Of a stretch of 64,000 nucleotides of DNA, positions 43,512 to 49,402 are shown piece by piece. Position numbers and translations under genes: made by a program. Positions within the stretch are counted from its first letter, which is position 1, and the number at the start of each line of letters is the position of its first letter. The stretch lies in assembly GCF_009363895.1 (NCBI RefSeq), contig NZ_CP045434.1, positions 558,001-622,000 of the forward strand. The letters are read 5' to 3'. This DNA comes from Sphingomonas ginsengisoli An et al. 2013. GTDB taxonomy: Bacteria > Pseudomonadota > Alphaproteobacteria > Sphingomonadales > Sphingomonadaceae. A model generated the notes under the pieces. It was given only the letters and a program-made list of their open reading frames with translations. It was not told the origin of the DNA and did no database searches.

Positions 43512-44237
43512 GTGCGTAAGCTCGGGATCATCGGCGGGGCGAGCTGGAGTTCGACCGCGCTTTATTACGATCACATCAACCGCCAGGTGGCGCAGCGGAT
43601 GGGCGGGCTGCACAGCGCCCGGCTGGTGATCGAAAGCCTCGACTTCGAGGAGGATTACGCGCGCTTCCATCGCAGCGGCGACTGGACCGGCGCGGAGAAG
43701 GTGGTGGTCGACGCTTCGCAGCGGCTCAAGACCGCCGGCGCCGAAGGCCTGCTGTTCGCGTCCAACACGATGCACAAGTCGGCCGAGGCCGCTTGCAAGG
43801 CGACCGGGCTCGAACTGGTCGACATCCGCGAGGCGACCGCCGCCCGGCTCGTCGCCGACGGCCGCAGCCGCATCGCGCTGCTCGGCACGCGCTTCACCAT
43901 GACCGAGGAATGGGCTCGCGCCCCCTACATGGAGCGCGGCATCGTCATCCAGGAACTCAGCCCCGAGTGGCGGACCGAGGTCGACCGGATCATCTACGAG
44001 GAACTGGCCGGCGGTCGCGTCGTGCGCGAGAGCCAGCGTAAATTGAAGACGTTGATCACCGAACTGGGCAAGCTCAAGGTCCAGGCGATCGTGCTCGGCT
44101 GCACCGAGCTGGTGCTCGCGGTCGATACCCGCGCCAACGTCCTGCCGGTCTACGACACCACCGCCATCCACGCCGCCGCGGCGGTCAAGTGGATGCTCGC
44201 CGACCAGCAGATCGAGGAAGCCCGAGCCGCCGCCTGA
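43512..44237 (+). CDS. Aspartate/glutamate racemase family protein (Ser/Cys)
   Basis: 241 residues: GIIGGASWSSTALYYDHIN at the N-terminus, FASNTMHKSAEA near residue 82-92 and VLGCTELVLA near 195. In classic members the two catalytic residues are both Cys; here the first is Ser84 and the second Cys197. E. coli YgeA, as I recall, pairs Thr83 with Cys197, so a Ser/Cys pair would be similar and compatible with activity biased to one direction. GTG start with GGGGAG upstream. Standalone gene. Confidence 0.85.
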   Translation: MRKLGIIGGASWSSTALYYDHINRQVAQRMGGLHSARLVIESLDFEEDYARFHRSGDWTGAEKVVVDASQRLKTAGAEGLLFASNTMHKSAEAACKATGLELVDIREATAARLVADGRSRIALLGTRFTMTEEWARAPYMERGIVIQELSPEWRTEVDRIIYEELAGGRVVRESQRKLKTLITELGKLKVQAIVLGCTELVLAVDTRANVLPVYDTTAIHAAAAVKWMLADQQIEEARAAA

Positions 44238-44312
44238 CGAGCGTGCGGCCCTGGCTTGATCCCTGCGAAACCGGTTGCTAGCAAAAACGCGTTAACTGCT
44301 CGGGTGGGGGTA

Positions 44313-44444
44313 ATGCGCAAAAAGTGGTCGAAGCCACAGGTCAAGGTCATGAAGGCCGGCGATGCGGAGTCGCAACGCAGCGTCGGCACTCCGGACGCGG
44401 GTTCGGCAAGCCTGGCCAAGGCGGCCAATTTAGCTGATCGCTGA
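44313..44444 (+). CDS. Candidate RiPP precursor peptide with lasso-like leader
   Basis: 43 residues from an ATG with GGGTGGGGG upstream. The N-terminal part matches the lasso-type leader pattern (aromatic-x-x-Pro-x-aliphatic ... Gly ... Glu): Trp5, Pro8, Val10, Gly16, Glu19. The C-terminal part (residues 24-43, VGTPDAGSASLAKAANLADR) is Ala/Ser-rich and would be the core. It stops 6 nt before the asparagine-synthetase-like gene. No acid sits at ring position 7-9 from a Gly start, so an ordinary lasso ring is not obvious. An upstream in-frame extension also exists but lacks support. Confidence 0.6.
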   Translation: MRKKWSKPQVKVMKAGDAESQRSVGTPDAGSASLAKAANLADR

Positions 44445-44450
44445 CCGGCG

Positions 44451-46157
44451 ATGACCGTCACCGGCCGGTTCACGGCCGACGGTCCGGCCGCTCACGACGT
44501 CACCATCGCGCACGACCGCGCACTGTTCCGCGCCGCGGAGGCGCGCGCGGGGCAGCGCCACTGCGTGATCGAGGGACGCGGCGACGATCCGCGGGCGCCG
44601 CTCGATCCGGGGAAATTGCTTTCGCATTGGTCACCCGGTGACCTCGGCCGACTTGGCGGGGATTGGGCGGTGGCTTTAGCCGACCTTGAGCGCCAAGTTC
44701 TCGTCCTCGCCCTCGCGCCACTAAGCGAACTCGAGCTTTTCTACCATGTCGCCGCCGATGGGACGGTGATTTATTCCACCGACCTTGCGGCGCTCATTCG
44801 CCGGGTGCCCGCCAAGTTCGACCTCACCATGGTCGCGCGAGCGTTCGCCATGCAACCGTTCTTCGATGAGCAGCGCTCACTCTATCACGGCATCTGGCAG
44901 GTGCAGCCGGGATCGCTGGTGACGATCACGGCGGGCGAAGCCAAGGTGAGCCGCTTCTGGGAATTGCCGCCACCGGCTAGTTTGAGGCTCGGTCATGCGG
45001 AAGCCGCATTGAAGCTTCGCGGCCTTCTCGAGCAGGCCGTGCAGCGCCGTCTGAGTGCGATCGAGGGCTCGGCGGGCACGCTGTTGAGCGCGGGCCGTGA
45101 CAGCGGCGCAGTCACCGCGGTCGCGGCGCGTGAACTGGCCGCTCGGGGACAGACGCTCGACGCCTGGACTGCCGCTGCCGAGCCGGACGGCGCGGACGAC
45201 GGGCTGCATCTGCTCGACGAGGCGCCGCTCGCTGCTTGCACCGCAGCGGGTTTCGCCAACGTCCGTCATCATGTCCTGCGGCCGCGACCGTTCGACCTGT
45301 GCGCCAGGCTCGACGACATCCATCGGCGGGTGCGGGTGCCGATCGCGCAGCCGCTGGCAGTCGCCTGGTGCGAGCAGCTGTGGGACGCCGCCAGTGCGGC
45401 GGGCAATCGGCTGCTGCTGAGCGGCGACTTCGGCAACTATGCGCTGAGTGCGGGCGGCTTGGGGTGGCTGGAGGACGTTCGGGCCGAGGAGGGTGTGGGC
45501 CGGTGGTTGGCGACGATTGCTACGCTGGTGGTGCGTGACCCGCGCCGGTGGCGGAGCCTCGGCGGCGCGCTGCTCGGCCACGGCTGGCGCTCGCGTACGC
45601 CGCCTGGCCCGAGGCCGCTGGATGGCTTCGTCCGCGGGCCGTTCGCAGTGGCCCTGCGAGAGGCGACGACGGCGACAGCGCCGCGCTTGACCTATCGCAA
45701 GTGGCTACGCCGAGGGGTGCGGATTTCGGTCAATCCGAACGATGTCGTGACGATCGGGCGCGAGCTCGAGCAGACCGATCCGACCCGCGACCGTGGGCTG
45801 GTGGAGTTTGTCCACGCGCTTCCGGCAGCCATGCTGGTCGGGCCGGACGGCCGCCGCGACCTGTTCGAGCGCGCGTTCGGCGACCTGCTCCCGCCAGCCG
45901 TGCTGCGGCCGCAGCGCCGGGGGCGGCAGAATGTCGACTGGCACCTGAGCTACGACCCTGCGCAGCTGGCAGAGGCGGTTCGCCGCTATGCGGAAGTGCC
46001 CGCGGTGCGCGAATGGGTCGATTGTGACGCGCTGCTCGGCGCGTTGCGCGATTGGCCGGCCGAGCGGACGCTGCGCGGGGCTTTATACGATCGGATGGTG
46101 TGGGGGGTCTTGCCGGCCATTTCGCTCGCCAGCTTCCTGGCCGTCGGAAAACCCTAG
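44451..46157 (+). CDS. Asparagine synthetase-like protein (possible RiPP-modifying enzyme)
   Basis: 568 residues in the AsnB fold. There is no Cys2, so the N-terminal glutaminase domain is inactive as in lasso cyclases. The ATP-pyrophosphatase loop is SAGRDSGAV (residues 213 onward) instead of the usual SGGLDSSAV; the S-x-G-x-D-S core is retained. FGNYALSAGG and WGVLPAISLASFL follow. Adjacent to the candidate precursor, which suggests it activates a carboxyl group of that peptide for amide or isopeptide formation. It could instead be an isolated asparagine-synthetase paralogue of unknown use. Confidence 0.8.
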   Translation: MTVTGRFTADGPAAHDVTIAHDRALFRAAEARAGQRHCVIEGRGDDPRAPLDPGKLLSHWSPGDLGRLGGDWAVALADLERQVLVLALAPLSELELFYHVAADGTVIYSTDLAALIRRVPAKFDLTMVARAFAMQPFFDEQRSLYHGIWQVQPGSLVTITAGEAKVSRFWELPPPASLRLGHAEAALKLRGLLEQAVQRRLSAIEGSAGTLLSAGRDSGAVTAVAARELAARGQTLDAWTAAAEPDGADDGLHLLDEAPLAACTAAGFANVRHHVLRPRPFDLCARLDDIHRRVRVPIAQPLAVAWCEQLWDAASAAGNRLLLSGDFGNYALSAGGLGWLEDVRAEEGVGRWLATIATLVVRDPRRWRSLGGALLGHGWRSRTPPGPRPLDGFVRGPFAVALREATTATAPRLTYRKWLRRGVRISVNPNDVVTIGRELEQTDPTRDRGLVEFVHALPAAMLVGPDGRRDLFERAFGDLLPPAVLRPQRRGRQNVDWHLSYDPAQLAEAVRRYAEVPAVREWVDCDALLGALRDWPAERTLRGALYDRMVWGVLPAISLASFLAVGKP

Positions 46158-46552
46158 TCGAGCGGGTCGAGGCTGGGGGCGGCGACGTCGACCCAGGCGT
46201 GCTTGCGGTCCCCGTAGACCGTATATTCGGGCGGCGGGAAGGACGGTTCGGCGAAGGCGCCGATTGCGATGGCGGTAAGGCCGGGTAGGCCCTCGGCCTG
46301 ATAGCCGACAGTCGAGCCGCAGGTCGGGCAGAAGCGGAAAGTCGCGACCTGGCCGCTGTCGCCGGCGGCCGACCAGCTTTTGGTCTCGCCCTCCCACTGC
46401 ACCCGATCGTCGGGCCAGCGCGCCTGCGCCGCGAAGCTGCTTCCCGAACGCTTCTGGCAGTTGAGGCAGAAGCAGACCGAGACGCGGACCGGATCGCCCG
46501 TGCAGGTCGCGCTTAGCTGCCCGCAGCGGCAGGTGGCGGTGCGCGCGCTCAT
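46154..46552 (-). CDS. GFA (glutathione-dependent formaldehyde-activating) family zinc protein
   Basis: 132 residues. Zinc-binding cysteines in TCRCGQLSATCTG, CFCLNCQKRSG and FCPTCGSTVGY follow the GFA/CENP-V layout. Such proteins bind glutathione adducts or metals; formaldehyde activation is only one documented case. It ends 4 nt inside the asparagine-synthetase-like gene's 3' end, converging with it, and its ATG overlaps the stop of the proline-rich protein upstream (46549-46552), so the two are co-translated. Confidence 0.93.
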   Translation of the reverse strand: MSARTATCRCGQLSATCTGDPVRVSVCFCLNCQKRSGSSFAAQARWPDDRVQWEGETKSWSAAGDSGQVATFRFCPTCGSTVGYQAEGLPGLTAIAIGAFAEPSFPPPEYTVYGDRKHAWVDVAAPSLDPLD

Positions 46553-47364
46553 CCCTTGCGCGCCAGCGTATAGTCGATCCGGATCCGCACCCACTCACCG
46601 ACCATCACCTGGTTGTCGCGCTGCGGCGGGCGCACCCGGAACTGCCAGGCGGCGGCGAGCACGGCGCGCAGCACGCCCGAATTGTTGGGATATTCGTCGA
46701 GGCCGATGCAGTCGGCGACGCGGAAGTCGGGCACCGTCTTGCAGGCGATCAGCGCGAAGCTGTCGGGCTGCGCGGTCGACAAGTAACCGCGCAATTCGCT
46801 CTCATAGGGTTTGCGATACCAGGCGGCGGCGTAGAGCTTTTCGCCATTGGGGCCGTGGCCCTCGGCGAGCGGCGTGTCCCCGGCGGCCGGGCCGGGCGCG
46901 GCGGGTCCCGCGACATGGCGAGGCGCGGCGGGGGCGCTGGGGAGCGAACGGATGTCGAGCCCCGCCATCGCGCCTTTCGGCAACTCGATGATCGGGGTCG
47001 GCGCGACGATCGGGCTTGGCGGCGTCGGGCTCGGGGTGGCCTGGGTGCGCGTCTGCGACGGAACCGGCGCGGGCGGGAGGGGGACCGTCGGCGCGGTTGC
47101 GGCGGCCTTGGGGGTCGGCGCGGGCGCGGGCGGGGCAGGGGTGTCGTCGGTCTTCTGGTTGCTGAGCTCGATGCTCACCAGATGCGGTTCGGGCGGCGGC
47201 TTGGTGGCTTCACCGCGTCCCAGCGTTAGCAGCGCAAGCACCAGCAGCAGCTCGATCAGCAGGGCGACCGCCCAGCCGACCGCGCGGCGGCTGGCCGGGA
47301 CCCGGAGCGCCTCGCGGATGCTGGTGGGGCGGCTATCGGCCGTCGAGACGCGCGACATGAACAT
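46549..47364 (-). CDS. Proline-rich single-span envelope protein (TonB-like organisation)
   Basis: 271 residues: a short cytoplasmic N-terminus, one span (AVGWAVALLIELLLVLALLTL), a periplasmic Pro/Ala/Thr-rich linker (about residues 60-160) and a folded C-terminal domain with two Cys (LIACKTVPD, VADCIGLDE) that could form a disulfide. The layout is TonB-like, but I see no TonB C-terminal signature (YP). Function unassigned. Overlaps the GFA gene by 4 nt. ATG here or at 47358. Confidence 0.75.
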   Translation of the reverse strand: MFMSRVSTADSRPTSIREALRVPASRRAVGWAVALLIELLLVLALLTLGRGEATKPPPEPHLVSIELSNQKTDDTPAPPAPAPTPKAAATAPTVPLPPAPVPSQTRTQATPSPTPPSPIVAPTPIIELPKGAMAGLDIRSLPSAPAAPRHVAGPAAPGPAAGDTPLAEGHGPNGEKLYAAAWYRKPYESELRGYLSTAQPDSFALIACKTVPDFRVADCIGLDEYPNNSGVLRAVLAAAWQFRVRPPQRDNQVMVGEWVRIRIDYTLARKG

Positions 47365-47461
47365 CGATGCCGCCTTTTAGAGCAGCGGCGCGGCAGCGCC
47401 ACCATTGGTGCAAAAGTTCACCCTCTCGCAACCTTGGCGGCGATCACCTAAGTCGGCGGGC

Positions 47462-49402
47462 GTGAGCAAGGCCGACCGTCCGCACCATCCTCGCGCCGCC
47501 GAGCGCTTCAACGAGGAGGCGGCGACCACTACCGTCAAGGGCGGGGGCGAGGCGCCCGATCTCGAGGCGGGGGTCGCCGCGATCCGCAATGTCTTGAAGA
47601 CGCTCCCGGCGCGGCCCGGGGTCTATCGGATGCAGGACGCCAAGGGCGACGTGCTCTATGTCGGCAAGGCGCGCGCGCTCAAGCAAAGGGTGACCAACTA
47701 TACGCAGGTCGCGCGGCTGTCGAAGCGGCTGCAGCGGATGGTCGCGCAGACGCGCTCGATGACCATCGTCACCACCCGGACCGAGGCCGAGGCGCTGCTG
47801 CTCGAGGCGCAGCTGATCAAGCGCTTCCGGCCGCCCTACAATGTGCTGCTCCGCGACGACAAAAGCTTCCCGTTCATCCTGCTGCGCGAGGATCATGCCT
47901 TTCCGCGGGTGCAGAAACATCGCGGGGCGCGGCGGCTGAAAGGGCAATATTTCGGGCCGTTCGCCAGCGCGGGTTCGGTCACTCGCACGCTTAATGCGTT
48001 GCAGAAGCTCTTCCTGCTAAGAAGCTGTTCGGACAGCTTTTTCCAGAACCGATCGCGGCCTTGCCTGCTTTACCAGATCCGCCGCTGCTCGGCACCGTGC
48101 GTTGGGCGGATCGAACAACCCGCCTACGGCGAGCTGGTCGAAGACGCGAAGAATTTCCTCTCCGGCAAGTCGACCGGCGTGCAGGCGCGGCTGAGCAAGT
48201 CGATGGCCGAGGCGGCCGAGAAGCAGGATTACGAGCTGGCGGCGGTCTATCGCGATCGGCTGCGCGCGCTGACCTACATCCAGGGCAGCCAAACGGTCCA
48301 CGCCGAGGGACTGGGCGACGCCGATATTTTCGCGCTTGCCTGCAGCGGCGGGCAGATGTGCATCCAAGCCTTCTTCATTCGTGGCGGGCAGAATTGGGGG
48401 CACCGCGCCTTCTTCCCCAGCCACACCGCCGACGTGCCCGAGGCCGAGGTTCTCAGCAGCTTCCTGGTCCAATTCTACGAGGATATGCCGCCGCCCAAGC
48501 GGGTGCTGGTCGATCGCGAGCTGCCCGAACTCGAACTGCTCGCCGAGGCGCTGTCCGAGCGGGCGGAACGCAAGGTCCTGATCGAGCGGCCCCAGCGCGG
48601 CGACCGCCGCAAGTTGATCGAGCAGGCCAGCCGAAACGCCACAGAGGCACTCGAGCGGCGGATGGCCGAGGGGACAACCCAGACGCGACTGCTGCGCGAG
48701 CTGGCCGACACGTTCGAGCTGCCCGACCTGCCCAAGCGGATCGAGGTCTATGACAACAGCCACATCATGGGGACCAATGCGACCGGGGCGATGATCGTCG
48801 CCGGGCCCGAGGGCTTCCGTAAGAACAGCTACCGCAAGTTCAACATCAAGCAGGCGGCGACCGACGACGACTTCGGGATGATGAAGGAAGTGCTAGAACG
48901 GCGCTTCGCCCGGCTCGAGAAGGACGATCCCGACCGGGCGAGCGGGGAATGGCCCGACCTCCTCCTGATCGACGGCGGGCGCGGCCAATTGAACGCGGTG
49001 TGCGAGATCATGGAGAATGCCGGGGTCCATGACATTCCGGTGATCGGCGTCGCCAAAGGGCCGCACCACGGCCGCGAGGGGCGCGAAGTGTTCCACCTGC
49101 CGAATGGGCGAGAACTGACGCTGCCAGTCAATTCGCCCTTGCTCTTCTACCTCCAGCGACTCCGCGACGAGGCGCACCGCTTCGCCATCGGCACCCACCG
49201 CGCCAAGCGCGCCAAGAGCCTGACCACCTCGACCCTCGACGAGGTACCGGGGATCGGGCCCAACCGGAAGCGCGCGCTGCTGATGCACTTCGGGACCGCG
49301 CGGGCGGTCAAGGGCGCGGCGCTGGAGGATCTCGAGCGGGCGCCGGGGATCAGCAAGGGCACCGCGCGCCAGCTCTACGATTATTTCCACCCCAACGGAT
49401 GA
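47462..49402 (+). CDS. uvrC: Excinuclease ABC subunit C
   Basis: Nuclease of nucleotide excision repair, incising on both sides of damage. 646 residues: GIY-YIG domain ([26 protein letters not shown], shown split as PGVYRMQD then [14 protein letters not shown]), central region with a UVR-like helix ([13 protein letters not shown]), RNase H-like domain with [15 protein letters not shown], and terminal HhH motifs ([18 protein letters not shown]). GTG start preferred; the longer frame adds 19 unconserved residues. Overlaps recO by 4 nt. Confidence 0.96.

Follow-up and report, generated by a model that had tools for sequence, protein, structure and literature searches.

The small peptide A1 and the AsnB-like enzyme C1, encoded side by side in this stretch of the Sphingomonas ginsengisoli genome, are probably (at roughly 0.7) the precursor and the cyclase of a kinase-associated lasso peptide system whose genes are scattered, a pair that would be served in trans by enzymes encoded elsewhere, as judged from sequence comparison. 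The stretch, hereafter the window, comprises 64,000 nucleotides (bases 558001-622000); the genome is a single contig of 3.04 Mb with a completeness rating of 100%. The kind of system is already known, the new element being its dispersed organisation, and no description of a scattered lasso layout was found in the open-licence papers searched. The labels A, B1, B2, C and K are assigned by analogy.

The precursor peptide, its core and its tail

A1 is a 43-codon ORF with a G-rich ribosome-binding-like run in front of it, and it ends 6 nt before C1, in agreement with the original prediction. Its features are the following (positions in the window):

44302..44310, + strand, G-rich ribosome-binding-like run 5' of the precursor (sequence)
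44313..44444, + strand, A1, lasso-type precursor peptide (43 codons; ATG at 44313, stop at 44442-44444)
44313..44369, + strand, A1 leader, WxxPxV...AGDAE (alignment of 18 peptides)
44370..44441, + strand, predicted A1 core, a proposed Ser1-Asp9 ring followed by the tail (family alignment; cleavage site and ring inferred)
44394..44396, + strand, Asp28 codon, proposed ring-closing residue (at least 90% of the 18 aligned peptides have Asp here)
44397..44444, + strand, A1 tail, out of frame with respect to the orthologue of genome G216 (DNA alignment)

The lasso-type leader pattern proposed from the single sequence (Trp5, Pro8, Val10, Gly16, Glu19) is present as described. W5, P8, A15, G16, A18 and E19 are invariant in the alignment of 18 peptides, and the A1 leader, which carries Val10, fits the lasso leader motif [Y/W]xxPx[L/V/I]; according to the accessible text of PMC13381572, leaders of the WxxP type characterise paeninodin-like precursors. 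When the 703 window ORFs with 20 aa or more were searched with a leave-one-out profile of the 17 remaining aligned peptides, A1 was retrieved with an E-value of 7.1e-12, matched as a longer, TTG-started ORF (44256-44444), the runner-up reaching 0.41, and the match stayed at 7.6e-11 when the own-genome paralogue and three syntenic relatives were also taken out. The leader match is beyond chance and the ORF is real. The peptide has no match in Pfam and NCBIfam, and a single-sequence database search returned A1 alone, in contrast to the 284 proteins found by the family profile. The identical 43-aa form is present in the database on two contigs, which are perhaps copies of one assembly. Counting against a lasso peptide, the residue at leader position -2 is Ala in the proposed register instead of the usual Thr; we do not treat it as defining, and the accessible text of PMC10368454 reports Ile or Val at this position for Sphingomonadales and Ala among predicted precursors.

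The aspartate had been placed at core position 4, which follows from another core start; the family alignment puts it at position 9. The core most likely begins directly after AGDAE, so that Asp28 would be its ninth residue. The profile search covered 5.8 billion proteins, and the best 120 of the 284 matches comprise 119 homologues besides A1 itself. In all 119 the offset from W to AE is 13, and in 112 the first acidic residue lies at core position 7, 8 or 9, counted from the residue after AE. A core starting one residue later (Gln1-Asp8) would place 20 of the 119 first acids at position 6, and the start after AE is therefore favoured. Each of these 119 homologues (best 120 of 284 matches) also ends in Ser, a count that is somewhat circular because the search profile itself has a Ser end in 17 of its 18 rows. 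When the seven homologues that match profile rows are removed, the figures among the matches listed are 112/112 for the terminal Ser and 105/112 for an acid at positions 7-9.

A1 itself ends in ...LADR without a C-terminal Ser, whereas 17 of the 18 aligned rows end in this residue. Comparison of the window DNA with the G216 orthologue reveals a one-base gap after the Asp codon, beside a short G run, and ORF 44324-44437, in the next frame, has a final stretch that matches the C-terminus of this orthologue, terminal Ser included. The leader and the proposed ring, Asp included, remain in frame. Frameshifts had been named beforehand as a sign against the pair; one is indeed seen in the tail of the window copy, and there are intact relatives. 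The shifted tail and the lost Ser may mean that A1 is in decay, or they may stem from an error in sequencing. Without this Ser, A1 is not filed as a phosphorylated lasso peptide, though its relatives fit this description.

That the precursor lost its core frame recently, that nothing mature is made and that C1 has yet to decay is a possibility we take seriously without favouring it. The shift relative to a syntenic orthologue, together with the loss of a residue kept in all the listed homologues, speaks for it, and a second pair in the same genome could cover the function. Against it stand the leader and ring still in frame, and an intact C1: across 33 other C rows, 41 columns are conserved at 90% or more, and C1 agrees with every one of them (a comparison excluding the split L079 gene, in which 10 rows are database orthologues of C1, P0008 being the G216 protein). 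Moreover, a sequencing error would look alike. An error of sequencing or assembly in the short G run, leaving a normal precursor, is in our view rather unlikely: the single-base nature of the difference beside that run and the intact C1 are in its favour, but the genome is a single contig rated complete, and the same 43-aa form occurs on the two database contigs mentioned above.

The AsnB-like enzyme and its syntenic position

The cyclase gene and the genes that mark its position are:

44451..46157, + strand, C1, AsnB-like lasso-cyclase-type enzyme of 568 aa without Cys2 (ORF, Pfam, NCBIfam, alignment)
45087..45104, + strand, ATP/PPi loop SAGRDS of C1, residues 213-218 (sequence, alignment)
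43512..44237, + strand, Asp/Glu racemase-family gene, left syntenic neighbour (Pfam, synteny)
47405..49402, + strand, uvrC, right syntenic neighbour (synteny)

The claims that this enzyme lacks Cys2 and carries SAGRDS in its ATP loop are borne out: the protein begins MTVTG..., Pfam detects only sub-threshold traces of the glutaminase domain, and PF00733 is matched with 69 bits. In this respect C1 resembles the AsnB-like cyclases of lasso systems, which have no active glutaminase. The top NCBIfam model for C1 is the lasso cyclase NF033535, yet with 75 bits against a cut-off of 525; the C proteins of the genus that were tried, clustered loci included, also remain below this cut-off (36-165 bits). 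The large shortfall of C1 counts against our reading. The model of the albusnodin/ikarugamycin macrolactam cyclase ranks fourth (60 bits). Of two syntenic orthologues tried, that of G216 matches an asparagine synthase model best and that of G217 the albusnodin/ikarugamycin macrolactam cyclase (81 bits), and in the PDB the C1 alignment matched four entries, one hydroxyamidotransferase, one beta-lactam synthetase and two asparagine synthetases. These macrolactam cyclase and PDB matches would suit an enzyme forming another amide, for example an unthreaded macrolactam, in place of a threaded lasso. We regard this as improbable, since the leader type, B1, B2, the kinase-like gene and the acid at core positions 7-9 all suit lasso systems.

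In the phylogeny, C1, the C proteins of four syntenic relatives and nine database orthologues (P0003-P0012 minus P0008, the G216 protein; 47-52% identity to C1) form one group with support 100/100. A second AsnB-like gene of the same genome, C2, shares 33% identity with C1; the two fall on opposite sides of the midpoint-rooted tree (split 90/96), which rules out a recent duplication of the own-genome pair. Neither C1 nor its alignment led to a confirmed locus when used to scan genome contigs. A family-wide C search gave hits in 145 of 199 genomes, mostly short weak matches presumed to be other AsnB-like proteins, and these were kept out of the counts. The C gene of genome G257 (L079:6572-8481) is split over two adjoining ORFs and is possibly a broken cyclase.

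The order racemase-A-C-uvrC recurs in four relatives (G214, G216, G217 and G218), in all of which nothing intervenes between C and uvrC. Judging from gene order, the racemase-uvrC position of the pair is old. In the window, C1 and uvrC are separated by two genes (46154-47364, - strand), one of the GFA family and one that is Pro-rich and has no match in Pfam.

Lasso-type genes elsewhere in the genome and across the genus

The original prediction described a stand-alone pair with no B protease or PqqD-like protein nearby. Locally this holds: neither PqqD nor Transglut_core3 has a match in the window, no B1 or B2 was matched near the pair in the stretches fetched from the four syntenic relatives, and an ABC transporter from one relative, the sole one tried, has no window homologue above 60 bits. 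It does not hold for the genome, which has one PqqD and one Transglut_core3 match, and the pair is therefore stand-alone only in the local sense. The PqqD-like B1 lies at 517559, 84.8 kb from A1; it passes the Pfam PqqD model and fails the NCBIfam lasso models. B2, with Transglut_core3, lies at 623505, 21.2 kb from A1, its start about 1.4 kb past the right window edge, and it passes the NCBIfam lasso B2 cut-off (86 vs 33 bits). The single HPr-kinase-like gene is found at 514763, 87.6 kb from A1; it is recognised only below the curated Pfam and NCBIfam cut-offs, which counts against our reading. C2 has a 35-codon peptide with the same leader directly upstream, adjoining B1, and the HPr-kinase-like and nucleotidyltransferase genes are located on the other side of this second pair.

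The suggested check of co-occurrence in sphingomonads came out in favour of the pair: a leader peptide, found by pattern or profile, adjoins C in 19 of 20 C-like loci taken from among the best matches. The exception, G209, has a C-B1-B2-kinase cluster (L073) with no precursor by profile beside C, its sole good match lying 15-18 kb away. Among 71 genomes of the genus, a precursor was detected in 27, B1 in 44, B2 in 48 and the kinase in 47, with a precursor profile that was built from the same genus and misses divergent precursors. Precursor places are 32 rows at E-values of at most 1.5e-4, weaker rows (0.013 upward) being discarded; at E 1, a row of any kind was present in 57 genomes of the 71. 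Kinase counts refer to rows at E 1e-8, and the B1 and B2 counts exclude three weak matches below curated cut-offs, a row of G265 and two pieces of G204 (raw counts 45 and 49).

B1 and the kinase occur in all 27 precursor genomes and B2 in 26 of them; the one in which it is missing is 79% complete. Half of the precursor places (16/32) are unlinked to both B genes, 15 of them more than 10 kb away on the same contig and one on another contig, and five genomes have two precursors for one B1, one B2 and one kinase. Eleven genomes have no precursor within 10 kb of B1 or B2, although for G209 and G216 the distance is only 15-18 and 14-15 kb, respectively; B1, B2 and the kinase are present in 11/11. 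One-sided Fisher tests of these against the 44 genomes without detected precursor gave p values of 0.0002 for B1, 0.0016 for B2 and 0.0007 for the kinase, and of 0.0014, 0.0078 and 0.0041 when G209 was left out and the near kin G214, G217 and G218 were counted once, in both cases with no correction for the tree. Since B1, B2 and the kinase are also present in 17, 22 and 20 of those 44 genomes, these genes are not specific to the WxxPxV-AGDAE precursor type, which counts against our reading.

The idea of a reduced or different peptide-modification system is not needed in view of this co-occurrence and of the genes found elsewhere in the genome. A two-gene system, in which C1 would modify the peptide without B1 and B2, seems very unlikely to us. 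It would accord with the lack of B1/B2 matches in the window and in the corresponding stretches of the four syntenic relatives, and one paper, by its title, describes the formation of pseudomycoidin in the absence of a leader and of a leader peptidase; nevertheless, the counts over precursor genomes include the unlinked cases, and the A1 leader retains the B1-binding motif. In each of G214, G217 and G218, the A-C pair, B1, the kinase-like/nucleotidyltransferase pair and B2 occur once, with no further C-like match at E 1e-3. Their A-C pair lies 52-69 kb from B1 and the kinase, B2 is 226-354 kb away, and the gap of 14-15 kb between B1 and the kinase spans exopolysaccharide genes.

A second recurrent place of stand-alone A-C pairs, beside a gyrA/parC-type gene, was observed at L069, L070 and L072, and these pairs are not one group in the tree. 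Across the family, the leader was found in 2 of 199 genomes, with no more than 37 candidates scored among the matches listed, and a family-wide spread was rejected.

Proposed pathway, known systems and exopolysaccharide neighbours

From these data we infer a route acting in trans, the chemistry of which is modelled on known lasso systems. The PqqD-like B1, encoded 85 kb away, would bind the WxxPxV leader, and the B2 protease, encoded 21 kb away, would cut after AGDAE; the accessible text of PMC5067487 describes B1 as binding the leader and presenting it to B2. With ATP, C1 would then close the ring between the freed N-terminus and the Asp9 side chain. In the relatives, the C-terminal Ser may be phosphorylated by the HPr-kinase-like enzyme, as such kinases do with precursors according to the available parts of PMC9266682 and PMC8498205, and decorated by the nucleotidyltransferase, a gene that accompanies an added hexose in pseudomycoidin (PMC9266682, in part). 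A single set of B1, B2 and kinase could serve both precursor-cyclase pairs of the genome, and the window copy, with its shifted tail and lost Ser, would be either an unphosphorylated variant or decaying. Lasso pathways are found through clustered genes, and if their parts are scattered and shared, cluster mining overlooks pairs like A1-C1. If shared, one B1/B2 pair must accept several leaders and cores. As A stays with C here, the arrangement is also a natural test of which lasso parts need to be co-encoded.

The closest comparisons are with kinase-associated lasso systems, all taken from partly accessible texts. Paeninodin of Paenibacillus (PadeA, C, K, B1, B2, D) shares the WxxP leader (PMC13381572), the split B1/B2, a kinase, there an HPr-kinase homologue acting on the C-terminal Ser (PMC9266682, PMC8498205), and, in some clusters, a nucleotidyltransferase, with polysaccharide loci nearby; however, it is encoded in one cluster with an ABC transporter, whereas here the genes are scattered and A1 has no terminal Ser. 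Counting against our reading, the accessible text of PMC13381572 calls paeninodins restricted to Bacillota. SyanA/SyanK of Sphingobium yanoikuyae likewise comes from a sphingomonad, and its kinase polyphosphorylates the C-terminal Ser (PMC9266682), but a figure legend presents it as a gene cluster (PMC8498205). BsfA/BsfK/BsfB1/BsfB2 of Bradymonas sediminis resembles the present system in its kinase, nucleotidyltransferase, discrete B1 and B2 and non-Thr residue at leader -2, yet it is clustered with an ABC transporter, its kinase targets Ser3, and the residue at -2 is Ile instead of Ala (PMC10368454). RiPP pathways completed by enzymes encoded elsewhere are exemplified by citrulassin with its unlinked deiminase (PMC12971885) and by lanthipeptides with unclustered proteases (PMC8960859); in those cases the unlinked part is a tailoring enzyme or a protease, whereas here it would be B1 and B2, core lasso-forming parts.

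The neighbours of these genes were surveyed in 21 of the 27 precursor genomes (leaving out G223, G226, G250, G253, G259 and G261). With queries drawn from two of these genomes, homologues of Wzc and/or a ligase were located next to the kinase or nucleotidyltransferase gene in 19 of the 21 (for example L032:4228-11666). Another 21 stretches that lack both of these genes, unequal in length and in part overlapping, had none. By Pfam, G217 has Wzz and Wzy_C, the own genome has a gene for polysaccharide export, and in three genomes EpsG adjoins B2. Paeninodin-like precursors are often near capsule loci in Bacilli (PMC13381572, accessible part), a link that has a parallel in these sphingomonad neighbours. 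It would be a speculative step, and to us a doubtful one, to see in the B1, B2, kinase and nucleotidyltransferase genes beside the operon an exopolysaccharide-tied hub that matures several unlinked pairs, its phosphorylated and sugar-decorated peptides ending on, or regulating, the exopolysaccharide.

An EpsG-like gene adjoins B1 or B2 in 10 of the 21 genomes, including the own-genome B2 (L039:6884-8002). Finally, in seven of the genomes whose genes are scattered, B1 has an ABC transporter gene in its vicinity (L170:3693-5519, with homologues in L168, L172, L175, L176, L177 and L186); this transporter could be the exporter or an ordinary gene of the lipid-exporter type.
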